Part shown: piece after piece, positions 15,925 through 20,870 of the stretch
How positions within the stretch are numbered: the stretch's first letter is position 1
Layout of the letters: each line of letters opens with the position of its first letter
Origin: a virus
IMG/VR virus record: IMGVR_UViG_3300027721_000084
Span: 1-22,290 of that record
Direction: 5' to 3' (one strand)
DNA length: 22,290 nucleotides
Made by a program: the position numbers and the translations under genes
The notes under the pieces: generated by a model
Told to the model about the DNA's origin: nothing
Database searches by the model: none
The model's input: only the letters and a program-made list of their open reading frames with translations

Positions 15925-18042
15925 TTAGTAAACTTTAGTTAATGTGAAATTCTGTGAACGTATTGTATTCGTTGCGCTAGACGTTACCCATTCAGCGGTA
16001 ATAGTCAATGAATTATTAACGGTTGTATCAAATACTGTATTACTAATCTGACCAAAGTGAACTCCCTCCATTGCTACAGCTGCATTTTTATTATAAGTAA
16101 ACATTCCATTTGCAAACAATTCAGCAACTCCCGCTCCTCCCAATTTAGTAACTGTAAAATCCAAAACTAAATCATAATATTTATTAGTTGTGGTTGCCAA
16201 CGTGTACTGTAATGCATCAATAATTAAAACCCCATTTGAACGTACTCTAATATGCAAAATTTCATTATTTGCACACGTTAATATCCCACACATTTTAGCA
16301 ACGAATGAATCTCCAACTTTAAAAGCATTTTCGGGAACGCTTAAAGTTCCAACCCCTGCTCCTATTAAAGACGCTTCGCCACTTGCGTAAACTATTGGAG
16401 TGCTTAGTGATGTCTGAGCGTAAAGTCCGTTTTGTTGCGGAGTAATCCATTCTGTACCAGTAACTGTAGATGATAATATTTGCCCAGCATCTCCTGTAGA
16501 TTCTAAGGCGTCTAGTATAGCCATCGGAAAATGAACGTCTCCTTTTAGATTGGTTCTAGTTATGCTATTGTTACCAAGTACTACCGTATTTGAACCAGCT
16601 CCAAGAGCATCACTCCCTATAACAATTGAATTTGAATCACTAGCATTTAAAGTCCCCGCCATATAACCTATCCCGATGTTACCGTGTCCCAATTCAGTAG
16701 TTCTAAGAGAAGCTTTACCTATTGCAACATTTTGCCCCCCAGTTGTGCCATATAAAGAACCTTCCCCTATTGCTGTATTGTCAATTCCAGTTTGATTTGA
16801 ATACAACGAACCTCCTCCTATTGATGTATTGCTACTACCTGTTGTATTTTCTCGCAGTGAATTTGGTCCTATAGCAACGTTACTACCTCCAGATTGATTA
16901 GACATTAAAGACTCAACCCCTATCGCTGTATTATAATCGCCGTTTACATTGTTTATAAAAGAATTAACTCCAATTACTAAGTTTGAAGCTACATTTCCAC
17001 CACCTCTACCAATAGTGTGTCCGTTTATAGATGAATCGCCATTTATATTTAATAAAAAACCGTTATCGACTGTTGTTCCTATTAAAACATTTCCTCTTAA
17101 TATTGTTTTTGTTATTGAACTATTACCTAATACAACTGAATTTGACCCAACTCCTTCGGTATCAAACCCTATCATAATTGAGTTATTATCATTAGAATTC
17201 AAACATCTTGTAGATGGACCAATACCTAAATTACCGCTTCCAGTTGTATTTAGGTATAGTGAATTTGCACCAATTCCAATATTGTTATCTCCAGTTGTAT
17301 TTGAATAAATTGCAGTAGTTCCTATAGCAACATTATATAATCCTATAGTATTTAAAGCTAGAGCACTATTTCCGAGAACAACATTTACAGGTATATTTCC
17401 ACCACCTCTTCCTACTGTCAATCCGTTAATTAACGCGTCTCCTTCAACTTGTAATTTTTGACCAGTATCGACTGTTGTTCCTATTAATACGTTTTGAGAG
17501 GTTGTTACTCTCATTGCTTCAACATAATTTGTAAAGAAGTATAAAGGTAGTTCAGACCTTGTTCCGAAATTAGCTCCTGAATATTTATTAAAACCAATGC
17601 TACCGATAGCGACAGAATCAGAATATCCTTGAATATCTCCAGAATCACCTATTAAATATAAATTCGTCTTACACAGAATTTCACCATTAACATTAAATTT
17701 GTAAAAATTAGAACCACCTCCAATAGTTACATTTGTACCGTCGTCAACTATTTGGCTATCAACCAATCCTAAAGTATCGAATTTAGGAATTGTGTTTGTT
17801 GTTCCTGATATAGGGATTGAAGTTTCTTTCTTGACTAAATCAATATCTGTAATTCCTGACTTCCACCAGTACTCAACTACATCACCGCTTTCTAATACTC
17901 CTACAGTCTTTCCTTTTTCTCTCAATATCTCTGGAACTCCAATATATGCGTCTGATAAAGATGCGTATGTACCGTAATGAGAGTCTACATTCGCAGAAGG
18001 ATTTACAATTTGTATCTCGTTACTTAAATTAAATGTAGCCAT
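15925..18042 (-). CDS. Trimeric fibre protein with YadA-head-like repeats
   Basis: This 705-residue protein is probably a host-binding fibre. The N-terminal region (about 1-75) has a Bacteroidota-phage fibre signature (YASLSDAYIGVPEILREKGK, then EYWW). The shaft is a duplicated block: both halves start NVLIGTTVD (184-192 and 318-326), then an INGxTxGRGGGN segment, and end VVLGNxSITxTxLxG (303-317 and 487-501). Between these lie about 20-residue repeats of the type N-x-(A/G)-IG-xxSL-xxN-x-(T/S)-G, roughly three in block one and five or six in block two. This is the left-handed beta-roll repeat of YadA-type trimeric adhesin heads. A GDAGQILSSTVTGTEWI connector (517-533) joins a C-terminal beta-rich, TNF-like domain (540-705). 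No self-cleaving chaperone domain is visible. Confidence 0.8.
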   Translation of the reverse strand: MATFNLSNEIQIVNPSANVDSHYGTYASLSDAYIGVPEILREKGKTVGVLESGDVVEYWWKSGITDIDLVKKETSIPISGTTNTIPKFDTLGLVDSQIVDDGTNVTIGGGSNFYKFNVNGEILCKTNLYLIGDSGDIQGYSDSVAIGSIGFNKYSGANFGTRSELPLYFFTNYVEAMRVTTSQNVLIGTTVDTGQKLQVEGDALINGLTVGRGGGNIPVNVVLGNSALALNTIGLYNVAIGTTAIYSNTTGDNNIGIGANSLYLNTTGSGNLGIGPSTRCLNSNDNNSIMIGFDTEGVGSNSVVLGNSSITKTILRGNVLIGTTVDNGFLLNINGDSSINGHTIGRGGGNVASNLVIGVNSFINNVNGDYNTAIGVESLMSNQSGGSNVAIGPNSLRENTTGSSNTSIGGGSLYSNQTGIDNTAIGEGSLYGTTGGQNVAIGKASLRTTELGHGNIGIGYMAGTLNASDSNSIVIGSDALGAGSNTVVLGNNSITRTNLKGDVHFPMAILDALESTGDAGQILSSTVTGTEWITPQQNGLYAQTSLSTPIVYASGEASLIGAGVGTLSVPENAFKVGDSFVAKMCGILTCANNEILHIRVRSNGVLIIDALQYTLATTTNKYYDLVLDFTVTKLGGAGVAELFANGMFTYNKNAAVAMEGVHFGQISNTVFDTTVNNSLTITAEWVTSSATNTIRSQNFTLTKVY

Positions 18043-18043
18043 G

Positions 18044-19390
18044 TTATGATAAAGTTATTGTTAATGTTAAACCTAATGGCACCCCGCTTTCGTATGATAA
18101 TGTTTTATAACTAATAGCGTTTCCTCCAGCGTCATTTACATTAAATATGGTTTCGGTAAAACTTGCAGTTATATTTTCAAAATTAGCCGTTATAACGCTA
18201 ACTAATGATTTTGTAAATGGTATTGATAATGAAAATTTAGTAGAAGAAACAACTGGAGTTATAAAGCTATTGTCGTAGCTATAATTATAATTTGGTAACT
18301 CTCTTACTTGTGCCGAATTTACTGGCAAAGAAGTTACATCTCCGTAAAATTGCTTATAGTAAGACGTTGTTGTAAATGAATTACTTGTTATTACATTTGT
18401 ATTTGTAGCAACTATTTCAGAGTTCCATACGTGTTGAGTTCCATTTCCATTTATAGTAATTGTACCTATATTTACACTGTGTGGACTAGTTATTGATAAC
18501 CCAGTTCCAATGATAGTTGATGTAGTGACGTCTCTTACTTTTAATGAATTTGCGGTTATATTTCCTAATTGCGTAAATGAAAAATCAAACGACTTTAATC
18601 CAGACAATGTAGTACCAGATTCTACTATTATTGATATGTCATTAGTATAAAAACTTAATGTAGGAATCACGTAAGGAGCTACTATTTGCTCTATGATATG
18701 TGATATTGTTTGACCAGATATATCAGTAGTTGCATTAAGACCGCCTACAGTGACTGTAGTAGGACTTGCTCCGTCATACACAGCACTTGGAATATCTTCT
18801 GCTGTTACAAATGGATGAATTCCATCTTCACCATCGTTTATTAAGTCAGATGTTTTTGTGGGGATATTTCCACCTCCACCTACTGTATCTATTAAAGAAA
18901 TTAAATAGTCCTTATCCTCTACTATACTTCCTTTTCCAGTAATGTATTCAAATGTTACATCCAAGAAACTTGGTTCAAGTAAATTTTCAACCACGCTATT
19001 TATTTTGAATAGACCGAATATATTGATATTATCAGCCTTATTAAATAGTATTTTTGAACCTACTAAAAAAGCAAGATATTCAGAAACGTCATTTCCTTTT
19101 AGCGTATACTTACTCAATAAGAAGCTAGTTATACTTGATATTGGATAAGGAGTCCCTACCTGAGGATTAAATGTAATTGTTCCTGGAAGTCTAGTATCTC
19201 CTAATTCAAGAATATCATATTTATAACGTATTGAAGTTCCAATATCTATAATTTGATTTTCATTAAAATAAACAGCTAATTTTGTTGGAGTAAAGTTTTT
19301 TGTTGAATACTGAGTTTGAGAATCTGAACCAATCCATTTATCTGAACCAGTTACTTTATCGTCAATTTCGTATCTGCTTATTTTTGTCAT
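18044..19390 (-). CDS. Fibre-like virion protein with MTKIS N-terminal module
   Basis: I place the start at the ATG at 19390 because it overlaps the stop of the spanin-like gene as ATGA. The upstream extension to 19447 would put a hydrophobic leader in another gene's reading frame. The 448-residue product begins MTKISRYEIDD, then GSDKWIGSDSQTQYSTKNFT, the same module as in the 70-residue protein at 15134-15346. It has a TSDLINDGEDG hinge (180-190), of a type that joins fibre domains in phages, and then a long Thr/Ser/Asn-rich beta region to the C-terminus. No enzymatic motif is visible. It is followed after one base by the YadA-like fibre gene, so the two may form one receptor-binding complex. 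Confidence 0.7.
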   Translation of the reverse strand: MTKISRYEIDDKVTGSDKWIGSDSQTQYSTKNFTPTKLAVYFNENQIIDIGTSIRYKYDILELGDTRLPGTITFNPQVGTPYPISSITSFLLSKYTLKGNDVSEYLAFLVGSKILFNKADNINIFGLFKINSVVENLLEPSFLDVTFEYITGKGSIVEDKDYLISLIDTVGGGGNIPTKTSDLINDGEDGIHPFVTAEDIPSAVYDGASPTTVTVGGLNATTDISGQTISHIIEQIVAPYVIPTLSFYTNDISIIVESGTTLSGLKSFDFSFTQLGNITANSLKVRDVTTSTIIGTGLSITSPHSVNIGTITINGNGTQHVWNSEIVATNTNVITSNSFTTTSYYKQFYGDVTSLPVNSAQVRELPNYNYSYDNSFITPVVSSTKFSLSIPFTKSLVSVITANFENITASFTETIFNVNDAGGNAISYKTLSYESGVPLGLTLTITLS

Positions 19391-19815
19391 AATTTTATAT
19401 AAATATATACTCCAAATGGAATTAAAAGCAATAGTAACCACCACCAATTAAAACCTGATTTTCTATCAGTTTCTTTAACTTGTTTTTTTACTTCTATTTT
19501 TTCAGTAGTCTTTTTTGAGCCCAAATCAGACACTGTTTTATTTGAAACAATACTTGTATTAACTTTTCTTTTTTTGTAGCTTATTTTAGCGTTTAGATAG
19601 CTCTTTCCATTAACTACCATTGGCTTAATGCTATCAATTGGCTCTATGCAAATCTCATCAGTACTATCTATTATTTTTATATCTGTATTTTCTTTTATTT
19701 GTAAGTTATTCTCTGTAACCTCAACCTTATCTTGTTTGATTTCTTCGGTAGACTTATTTACCTTACGAGTAGCGCAAGATGTAAGTAGTAACATAAGTAT
19801 TAGTAAGTATCTCAT
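19387..19815 (-). CDS. Putative unimolecular spanin (outer-membrane lipoprotein with C-terminal TM)
   Basis: The last lysis gene (142 aa) has two membrane anchors. Residues 1-14 are a lipoprotein signal with lipobox LTSC and modified Cys14 (MRYLLILMLLLTSC). Residues about 124-140 are a C-terminal TM helix (WWWLLLLLIPFGVYIYI). The middle is Lys/Glu/Thr-rich and extended. This two-anchor design is that of u-spanins such as T1 gp11, which tie the inner to the outer membrane and fuse them in the last step of lysis. It overlaps the endolysin gene by 4 bases and the next fibre gene by 4 bases. The assignment is from topology; no sequence similarity to T1 gp11 is claimed. Confidence 0.7.
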   Translation of the reverse strand: MRYLLILMLLLTSCATRKVNKSTEEIKQDKVEVTENNLQIKENTDIKIIDSTDEICIEPIDSIKPMVVNGKSYLNAKISYKKRKVNTSIVSNKTVSDLGSKKTTEKIEVKKQVKETDRKSGFNWWWLLLLLIPFGVYIYIKL

Positions 19816-20237
19816 TTTATGTGTAGTATTTGTTTTCTATTCTTTTCCTTAGATACGTAGGATACATGAACCCATGCTGGATTCTTATCTGTTCCATACT
19901 CCCAAATTAACTGATCGAAATCTAATTTATCTTTTATATATTCAAATATCATTTTATTAGAAATATCTCCAGTTGCCTGTATATCAATAGCCTGACCTTT
20001 AACATGTTGAGAGGTTTTAGATCCTCCAACAGAATTATTTAAAAGTAAGCTTCTATAGAAACTAGAAACTCTAAGTGGTGTATCAAAATACTCTCTTATA
20101 ACATCAAAAACTTGCGTAGCAACTAGTTGCATGTTTATAAGTTCTTTATCTCCTGGAGTATTTACTATTCCCTTACGTATAGCAGTCTGACTTGTGGTAG
20201 CCTCTAAGTATGTTATATATTTTGATATATTTTTCAT
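19812..20237 (-). CDS. Endolysin, M15-family zinc peptidase
   Basis: This 141-residue enzyme should cleave peptide bonds in peptidoglycan during lysis. It shows the M15 peptidase layout: a SSFYRS motif (58-63), SQHVKGQAIDIQ (77-88) with zinc ligands H78 and D85, a catalytic acid at WEYG (E113), and WVHVS (122-126) with the third ligand H124. That is the H-D-E-H set of the D-Ala-D-Ala carboxypeptidase/endolysin family. The N-terminal 50 residues are helical. No signal peptide is visible, so export should depend on the holin. It overlaps the XhlA-like gene and the spanin-like gene by 4 bases each, as expected in a lysis cassette. Confidence 0.88.
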   Translation of the reverse strand: MKNISKYITYLEATTSQTAIRKGIVNTPGDKELINMQLVATQVFDVIREYFDTPLRVSSFYRSLLLNNSVGGSKTSQHVKGQAIDIQATGDISNKMIFEYIKDKLDFDQLIWEYGTDKNPAWVHVSYVSKEKNRKQILHIK

Positions 20238-20473
20238 CGTATCGAGAATAATTTAAAAATTAAAGTAATTAAGGCACCGAAAATAATTACAAACGCAACT
20301 TTGAATTGATTTACATAAACAGAAATTTCGTTTTTGAAAATTTCTAATTTTTCAACACGTTCATCTGTTTCTTTCATTTGTGAAACCATTCCGTTAAAGT
20401 TATTAAATTCACTTCCCAAAAGAGCTTGTTTAATTTCTTTGATGTCTTTGCTTAATTGTTCTAAGTTATCCAT
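20234..20473 (-). CDS. XhlA-like coiled-coil protein with C-terminal TM helix
   Basis: This 79-residue protein has an N-terminal helical, coiled-coil section (LEQLSKDIKEIKQALLGSEF, then RVEKLEIFKNEISVYVNQF) and one C-terminal hydrophobic helix (AFVIIFGALITLIFKLF, about 59-75). That layout matches XhlA-type proteins that work with small holins. It lies between the two-TM holin candidate and the endolysin, sharing one base with the former and overlapping the latter by 4. It may be a holin, a holin partner or an antiholin; the sequence does not decide. Confidence 0.6.
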   Translation of the reverse strand: MDNLEQLSKDIKEIKQALLGSEFNNFNGMVSQMKETDERVEKLEIFKNEISVYVNQFKVAFVIIFGALITLIFKLFSIR

Positions 20474-20655
20474 TATTTCCTTAATCGTTCTACTATGTTT
20501 GTAACCCCTTCAATTCCTATGTATGCAGTCGCAATTATAACCCAATCACTTGAAGTTAATTGACCGCTAAATAACCCCCCACAAGCTACCATAAAAACAA
20601 GTAACTTGCGAGAAATCCATTTATTTAGTATTATATCAAATTGCTCTTTACTCAT
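20473..20655 (-). CDS. Holin candidate (two TM helices)
   Basis: This 60-residue protein has two hydrophobic stretches, KLLVFMVACGGLFSGQL (17-33) and WVIIATAYIGIEGVTNIV (38-55), joined by a short polar turn. It has a charged N-terminus and a basic C-terminus (ERLRK). Small two-TM proteins next to an endolysin are typical phage holins, which form the inner-membrane lesion that releases the endolysin. It overlaps the preceding gene by 4 bases. The holin role is inferred from size, topology and context. Confidence 0.6.
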   Translation of the reverse strand: MSKEQFDIILNKWISRKLLVFMVACGGLFSGQLTSSDWVIIATAYIGIEGVTNIVERLRK

Positions 20656-20870
20656 TTTAAAAAATGTAAAACGATTGAGGGAATCATTGTAGTTAATAAA
20701 TCTTTATAATCAAATCCTTTGTAGTCTATTTGGTCTTTAATTTCTTTGCCTAAAGCGAATAAAAACACAATTCCGATACTATACAAGTCATTTAAAAAAT
20801 AGTCGCTTAAAACGTATATAAAGAAACCATAAATAAAATGATTTGCTTTATCTTGTGGTATTAATATCAT
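20652..20870 (-). CDS. Small DKxxHF membrane protein in the lysis cassette
   Basis: I choose the ATG at 20870 rather than 20963, because the longer frame would overlap the upstream gene by 116 bases while this one overlaps by 23. The 72-residue product starts MILIPQDKANHFIYGFFIYV, with the DKxxHFxxG motif I associate with small membrane proteins in Bacteroidota phages and with a family of putative membrane proteins. It has hydrophobic segments about 12-24, 28-40 and near the C-terminus. It is translationally coupled to the holin candidate by a 4-base overlap. It could be an accessory holin-type protein; no function is established. Confidence 0.65.
   Translation of the reverse strand: MILIPQDKANHFIYGFFIYVLSDYFLNDLYSIGIVFLFALGKEIKDQIDYKGFDYKDLLTTMIPSIVLHFLK

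Follow-up and report, generated by a model that had tools for sequence, protein, structure and literature searches.

A lysis cassette ending in a protein with two predicted membrane anchors

The window analysed here is a fragment of 22,290 bases from a virus of Bacteroidota bacteria (IMG/VR record IMGVR_UViG_3300027721_000084), and our subject is the last gene of a lysis cassette on its minus strand. The product of this gene, a protein of 142 residues, is very probably a unimolecular spanin (u-spanin), judging from its sequence. The cassette itself is real and ordinary in kind: five open reading frames (ORFs) are read from 20870 to 19387 with successive overlaps of 4, 1, 4 and 4 bases, in the order that an earlier note on this DNA had described. 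The genes and their downstream neighbour are as follows.

20652..20870, minus strand: 72-residue small protein, weakly hydrophobic, accessory, at the head of the cassette; homologue in 2 of 88 relatives' loci
20473..20655, minus strand: 60-residue holin candidate with a single, modest predicted membrane segment; homologues at 18 of 88 relatives' loci (in three of the 18 more than 2 kb away)
20234..20473, minus strand: 79-residue protein, one C-terminal membrane segment; homologue before the endolysin in 16 of 88 relatives' loci
19812..20237, minus strand: 141-residue endolysin, an M15 peptidase (Peptidase_M15_3; phrog_894), no membrane segment predicted
19387..19815, minus strand: 142-residue u-spanin candidate, signals for both anchors, phrog_5885
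18044..19390, minus strand: next gene downstream, product starting MTKISRYEIDDKV..., positioned among tail genes, not part of the lysis function

The fourth protein had been named an M15 endolysin, and this is confirmed by matches to Peptidase_M15_3 (PF08291, E 4e-18, 65.9 bits against a gathering cut-off of 23.2) in Pfam and to the endolysin family phrog_894 (E 3e-29) in PHROG. The 79-residue protein has a clear C-terminal segment of 11.0 kcal on the Wimley-White octanol scale and an N-terminal part that looks coiled by eye. Three membrane proteins had been placed ahead of the endolysin; segments are indeed predicted in all three, two of them modest, but the counts above indicate that the genes are not all core. 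The 72-residue protein carries a DKANHF..G...GKE..D motif and has a weak match to phrog_29588 (E 2e-4). The downstream gene, with its ATG at 19390, shares 4 bases with the end of the spanin gene.

The two predicted anchors of the 142-residue protein

The 142-residue protein starts with MRYLLILMLLLTSC, which includes the lipobox LTSC and Cys14, and can be divided into the following parts.

Residues 1-13: signal
Residues 14-58: N-terminal arm (N-arm)
Residues 59-75: tip (PIDSIKPMVVNGKSYLN)
Residues 76-121: C-terminal arm (C-arm)
Residues about 122-141: membrane helix

The C-terminal segment (residues 122-140) scores 19.0 kcal/mol on the Wimley-White octanol scale, compared with 19.3 for the control, the proven u-spanin gp11 of phage T1, and a helix is found at residues 125-141 of the AlphaFold2 model. 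The lipobox and the C-terminal transmembrane helix claimed by the earlier note are thus both present, and the only significant family match is phrog_5885, a family of unknown function. Matches in Pfam and NCBIfam had E values of 0.013 or worse, below the curated cut-off, and we attribute them to the signal sequence or to composition. None of the ten window proteins compared with Pfam and PHROG matched a spanin family.

In a scan for ORFs with two anchors, this protein was the sole window ORF of 60-260 residues to pass, which argues that its architecture is more than chance. Applied to phage T1 as positive control, the scan recovered gp11 and, spuriously, one antisense ORF. A flavobacterial genome sampled over 400 kb gave 342 ORFs, 28 of them lipoprotein-like, and 2 of these 28 pass a loose C-terminal threshold. 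The first, of 96 residues, has a hydrophobic segment near its end and a 'lipobox', CIGLLVKD, that could equally be a second membrane helix; the second, of 270 residues, lies barely above the threshold.

Conservation of the architecture in phrog_5885

The match to phrog_5885 (E 4.8e-11) covers residues 4-141. Because the profile at E ≤ 1 also finds matches in 5 of 14 control genomes, only strong matches carry weight. In GenBank, 86 records of Cellulophaga and Flavobacterium phages match at E ≤ 1, the Flavobacterium ones at E 0.1; a listing of 87 records at E ≤ 1 also contains one from Salmonella. The listed homologues are annotated 'hypothetical protein'. They include the phrog_5885 members gp65 of Cellulophaga phage phi18:1 and gp19 of Flavobacterium phage FCL-2, which are homologous to the 142-residue protein at 29-39% identity and share with it the tip motif and both anchors. 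Flavobacterium phage 11b carries a member as well, and a scan of bacterial genomes gave three members, all in Bacteroidota. Relatives in the Protein Data Bank were limited to two matches (E 0.045 and 0.15) at profile positions 3-48 only, that is, the signal, the lipobox and the start of the N-arm.

Relatives were collected from IMG/VR by profile scans: the single protein gave 8 relatives, and a ten-sequence alignment gave 155 matches, of which the best 80 were taken. The resulting set 1 holds 89 loci including the window and 82 distinct proteins, L018 having been dropped since it lies on the same contig as L002. A divergent six-sequence alignment gave 124 matches; among 80 of these, 25 contigs outside set 1 were used, chosen by eye from contig names and excluding the IMG/VR copies of cultured phages L140, L141, L199 and L202. 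Since many of the 25 are closely related to set-1 members, and L195 and L196 are identical, these contigs amount to a partial replication only.

The two-anchor architecture is conserved down to about 26% identity. The lipobox pattern is found in 82 of 82 distinct set-1 proteins and in 25 of 25 further contigs, and a hydrophobic C-terminal segment (KD17 ≥ 1.24 within the last 45 residues) in 81 of the 83 set-1 members, the window among them, whose 3' end is complete. The two exceptions are L061, where the segment precedes a C-terminal extension, and L055, which ends where the segment begins. Ectodomain conservation is highest at the central PIDSIKPMVVNGKSYLN, where Gly70 and Asn75 do not vary among samples of 44 and 47 diverse members. 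A single ectodomain cysteine occurs in 17 of the 82 distinct proteins and none in the other 65.

Members with similar ectodomains carry one of two membrane segment types, ITQLWWLWLL or SGFNWWWLLLLLIP (L005 and L007 versus L002, L003, L004 and L008; also L006), and the second type recurs in L009, at 38% identity to the window protein. The membrane segment thus seems, from these sequences, to be exchanged separately from the ectodomain. In L099 (Aestuariibaculum marinum, 305773-316195) a family member directly follows a GH19 gene on an 862-kb bacterial contig; the locus is presumably a prophage or prophage remains.

The residues after the lipobox Cys bear on membrane orientation. Bacteroidota surface lipoproteins carry an acidic export signal after the Cys (K-(D/E)2, SDDDD or SDDFE; PMC5080379), and a spanin should not be surface-exported. 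Asp or Glu at positions +2 to +6 was found in 0 of the 82 distinct family proteins, whereas a basic residue (Arg or Lys) occupies +4 in 81 proteins and +5 in 78. The lipobox pattern behind this count includes the basic residues, but every protein passed it, so the count of zero is not due to exclusion. In the host comparison, 400 kb of flavobacterial genome containing L099, an acidic residue at +2 to +6 occurs in 20 of 28 lipoprotein-like ORFs and basic residues at both +4 and +5 in 2 of 28. The missing acidic signal supports a putative periplasm-facing location for the family lipoproteins.

Endolysin neighbourhood across relatives

To each member we assigned as upstream neighbour the longest ORF ending at most 250 bases away; neighbours were clustered by BLAST and one representative of each cluster was named by Pfam. 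At the 89 loci the nearest upstream gene is a GH24 lysozyme in 41, M15_3 in five including the window, M15_4 in six (two clusters), GH19 in one and Amidase_3 in one. A recognised endolysin is therefore nearest upstream in 54 of 89 loci, or in 60 if six loci with DUF5675 are counted. In L022 and L023 an M15 gene follows the spanin gene instead, and in phage 11b the member follows an annotated GH19 endolysin. Particularly informative is L002, which keeps window-type genes for the 60-residue, 79-residue and spanin proteins while a GH24-type lysozyme (cluster 0) replaces M15. Retention of the spanin gene while the enzyme changes family argues that the protein serves peptidoglycan cutting generally and not one enzyme, which we consider the strongest argument. 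The comparison of the same position in related phages, proposed by the earlier note, supports its prediction of a u-spanin as the fifth protein: signals for both anchors are there, the gene adjoins an endolysin, and the architecture is kept among distant relatives.

The six DUF5675 loci were examined as a separate observation. DUF5675 (PF18925, phrog_1501, unknown function) occupies the endolysin slot before the spanin gene at L025:41-424, L027:3621-4004, L028:3573-3956, L038:3621-3998, L047:3618-4001 and L092:3582-3965. The same frames hold GH24 elsewhere (L027 and L038 versus L029, L034 and L088) or M15_4 (L028 and L047 versus L055, L078 and L094), and no endolysin of the seven types tested was found within the flanks examined. 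The IHSGN..HDTEGC motif of DUF5675 presumably resembles that of L,D-transpeptidases; the literature found mentions the family without a function. DUF5675 is possibly an unrecognised endolysin family, and the slot beside the spanin gene can more generally help to name other lytic enzymes.

Matched arms and a predicted hairpin

We measured the N-arm from the Cys to the first tip residue (Pro, rarely Ala). For the C-arm, a first definition starts at the tip Asn and ends with the final charged residue ahead of the membrane segment. Among 80 complete proteins, drawn from 78 loci, the window and phage 11b and including identical proteins from separate contigs, N-arms of 31-51 residues and C-arms of 30-55 residues are correlated with r 0.917. 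Proteins cut by the contig (L029, L059, L079, L080, L083, L087, L037 and L073) were dropped from these counts, as were L061, for its extension, and L055, for stopping at the start of the membrane segment. The correlation was 0.923 (n = 20), 0.931 (n = 18) and 0.942 (n = 11) in representatives below 60, 50 and 45% identity, respectively, and 0.916 in the 20 complete scored proteins of the 25 further contigs; of the other five, three were cut (L184, L192, L200) and two escaped the tip pattern, namely L136 and L151, whose arms measured by hand are 47/49 in both.

Phylogenetic contrasts over 90 distinct proteins gave r 0.51 and a slope of 1.10 under this first definition (maximum of 500 permutations 0.138). 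In 19 of 100 proteins the end of the C-arm moves by about 4 owing to a lysine close to the helix, and because the definition is noisy in this way we adopted a refined end, chosen post hoc: the last acidic residue or His before a basic residue or Asn. With the refined end, N minus C equals 3 in 92 of the 96 proteins scored (of 100), the four exceptions being one difference of 4 and three of 9, and the contrasts rise to r 0.96 with a slope of 0.99 (permutation maximum 0.145 in 300). N-arm length is odd in 79 of the 80 proteins and in all 20 further ones (99 of 100), and at least 13 changes of arm length are required on the tree. The arms would accordingly change in twos, as strand alternation would need, although, given shared descent, the parity count carries less weight than its size suggests.

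AlphaFold2 run on 44 alignment rows predicts long strands at 23-59 and 76-112 around the conserved tip, that is, a hairpin (mean predicted local distance difference test score, pLDDT, 63.5; predicted template modelling score, pTM, 0.23). With 10 rows (pLDDT 56.8) the strands are 43-49, 53-59, 66-68, 71-73, 76-82 and 86-92; the ends of the four outer strands sum to 135, in an output that prints no pairings. The sum for the strands of the 44-row model is 135 too, and the same register emerges from charge complementarity in 27 representatives below 70% identity, which is best at shift +1 of 17, i + j = 135. The mean charge product there is -0.107, compared with a null of -0.009 (standard deviation 0.015; 0 of 1000 column permutations). 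Restricting the pairs to those at least 12 residues from the tip leaves 0 of 1000, and at least 20 residues 5 of 1000, where shift +4 is slightly lower. Pairs near the tip at this sum are E58-K77, I57-I78, E54-K81 and D53-K82. At the other end of the hairpin the partner of Cys14 is residue 121, which immediately precedes the membrane helix. Counted from the last charged residue ahead of the helix, the residue opposite the lipobox Cys falls between -5 and +3 in 100 of 100 proteins, and at +1 to +3 in 77. The two matched arms are predicted to form a long antiparallel beta-hairpin, and the ectodomain may be mainly beta, a trait that PMC6139136 describes for gp11-type u-spanins without making it part of their definition: the strands are of low confidence, the odd N-arm lengths fit, and the two-residue hydrophobic period is faint.

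A proposed fold-back mechanism and its alternatives

Taking these results together, we consider a u-spanin acting by fold-back zipping of a beta-hairpin the best explanation of the whole, and a likely one. On this account, the 60-residue protein, the 79-residue protein or both would open the inner membrane, and the M15 endolysin would cut the peptidoglycan and free the spanin ectodomain. An extended chain of about 108 residues, at standard residue spacing, could span the periplasm. The freed ectodomain would then fold back at the tip (residues 59-75) into an antiparallel beta-hairpin, and its equal arms would zip from the tip toward the two membrane anchors. Since Cys14 would face residue 121, where the helix begins, complete zipping would bring the anchors next to each other and drive the two membranes into fusion. 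The outer-membrane location, the spanning state, zipping as the driving step and membrane fusion are what we infer. The broader proposition, that the family consists of single-chain beta-zipper fusogens whose arms are held apart by peptidoglycan and zip from tip to anchors, fusing both membranes, stands in our view at even odds.

A first alternative keeps the u-spanin but not the pairing of the arms as the fusion step: the hairpin would be a resting fold, or the proteins would form antiparallel dimers, and oligomerisation would drive fusion. Equal arms are also compatible with an antiparallel dimer about the tip, and oligomerisation is also required of u-spanins according to an excerpt of a review (PMC7830690). 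This rival alone, however, leaves unexplained why the register ends at both anchors (at +1 to +3 in 77 of 100 proteins), and we regard it as unlikely. In a second alternative the inner membrane holds both anchors, and the hairpin forms a stalk of ~15 nm whose tip serves recognition; the protein would then be no spanin but a regulator of endolysin or holin, or a peptidoglycan binder. A tip that holds the most invariant ectodomain positions would suit such a stalk, and a hairpin, which naturally brings both ends together, also fits anchors that share one membrane from the start. Yet T1 gp11, with the same anchor plan and position, replaces Rz/Rz1, as described in an excerpt of PMC6139136, and a gene kept while the adjacent enzyme changes family is a poor fit for the partner of one enzyme; we judge this alternative improbable. 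That the protein is an ordinary phage lipoprotein with another role, such as superinfection exclusion, following an endolysin by chance, might draw on the lack of a function for phrog_5885 and on a weak match to the Cor exclusion family (E 0.055), but this match is not significant, and the conserved C-terminal segment and the recurring place beside unrelated endolysins make it highly improbable.

Several observations, in addition to the one-membrane geometry just mentioned, weigh against a u-spanin that fuses membranes by fold-back zipping. The anchors were assessed by motif and hydrophobicity only. At 29 of 89 loci the nearest upstream gene is neither an endolysin nor DUF5675: three of these lack upstream sequence, and in 26 there is another neighbour, for example a 91-residue protein in seven, with further cases at L026, L030, L044, L064 and L098. 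Cys56 lies in the ectodomain of the window protein, while an excerpt of PMC6139136 gives a periplasmic cysteine in none of 58 surveyed u-spanins, a regularity that does not define the class. No sequence relation to T1 gp11 was detected beyond the lipobox (hhalign probability 4.6). As for the arms, family members are related and their counts are non-independent, the tree-corrected r is only 0.51 under the first C-arm definition, and the refined definition, besides being post hoc, leaves 4 of 100 proteins (L033, L054, L099 and L010) unscored. The AlphaFold2 model is weak by both of its scores and was built from the same family alignment, so that its register and the sequences do not count as independent evidence; the charge register, though equal to it, is the best of 17 shifts scanned. 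At lag 2 the hydrophobicity autocorrelation is -0.016 for the N-arm and 0.056 for the C-arm, shuffled arms giving about -0.036, with no clean two-residue period, which argues against a regular amphipathic strand. Weaker points concern the genes ahead of the endolysin. On the octanol scale the 72-residue protein has one modest segment of 6.6 kcal and a marginal one of 1.2 kcal, and the 60-residue protein a single modest segment of 3.7 kcal. For the 79-residue protein, called XhlA-like in the earlier note, XhlA (which we take to be PF10779) was not among the Pfam families at E ≤ 1; 'XhlA-like' describes a mere resemblance in shape, and the label was dropped.

Beyond the cassette, the window encodes at 15925-18042 a structural protein of 705 residues with many N.AIG..SL..N repeats, which matches phrog_6002, 4636 and 23837 (virion structural or tail spike).

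Comparison with known systems

Two-anchor spanins had been described as seldom annotated in Bacteroidota phages. This agrees with the annotation of the listed homologues, but u-spanins in these phages are already in print: excerpts of the literature report them in Cellulophaga phages Ingeline and Nekkels (PMC8776804) and state that Bacteroidetes phages exclusively use them (PMC12596118). The kind is therefore known, and phrog_5885 is a further large family, one that had no assigned function in PHROGs and now gains a likely one. In Ingeline_6, an ORF of 157 residues (L132:32052-32525), which we take to be the spanin meant in PMC8776804, resembles the 142-residue protein in having a lipobox and a C-terminal hydrophobic segment; a second ORF, of 126 residues, also passes the two-anchor scan. 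The 157-residue ORF does not match the profile of the phrog_5885 family, and is possibly a second, unrelated u-spanin of flavobacterial phages. In Nekkels_1 the best match to the family profile, over 50 of its 53.4 kb, is insignificant (domain E 0.34).

Bacteroides phages present a different arrangement. The M15 endolysin gene of B124-14, BF10P2 and BK745P1 is followed by an i-spanin-like gene (L102:3390-3995, L103:2125-2730 and L104:3393-3980), whose product has an N-terminal hydrophobic segment, a region that looks coiled by eye and no lipobox. This contrasts, for B124-14, with the excerpt of PMC6139136 that lists this phage and two Croceibacter phages as spanin-less, and with the u-spanin-only statement in the part of PMC12596118 cited above.

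A close counterpart is T1 gp11. It shares with the 142-residue protein the N-terminal lipobox, the C-terminal membrane helix, the place as last cassette gene after the endolysin and an ectodomain predicted, here at low confidence, to be mainly beta. It differs in having no detectable sequence relation to the family, in which we find a conserved central tip and equal arms, and, for the clade of the window protein, an ectodomain cysteine. For a comparison of arm lengths, gp11 offered only 8 close relatives. Excerpts of PMC6139136 and PMC7830690 describe mechanistic detail of u-spanin fusion as lacking, and the mostly open-access literature found speaks of neither a hairpin nor matched arms for u-spanins, the word 'hairpin' being confined to reference titles. 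The arm-length rule of the ectodomain looks new, and arms matched nearly to the residue around a conserved tip make the fusion mechanism of u-spanins directly testable. If it holds, matched arms would provide a sequence signature for recognising u-spanins elsewhere.

Lambda Rz/Rz1 would have the same task as proposed here, joining the inner and outer membranes once the peptidoglycan is cut, but does so with two proteins and an alpha-helical coiled coil, according to an excerpt of PMC6139136, whereas the 142-residue protein is a single chain predicted to be beta. Should the fold-back mechanism be true, it would be the beta equivalent, within a single protein, of SNARE or class I hairpin closure.

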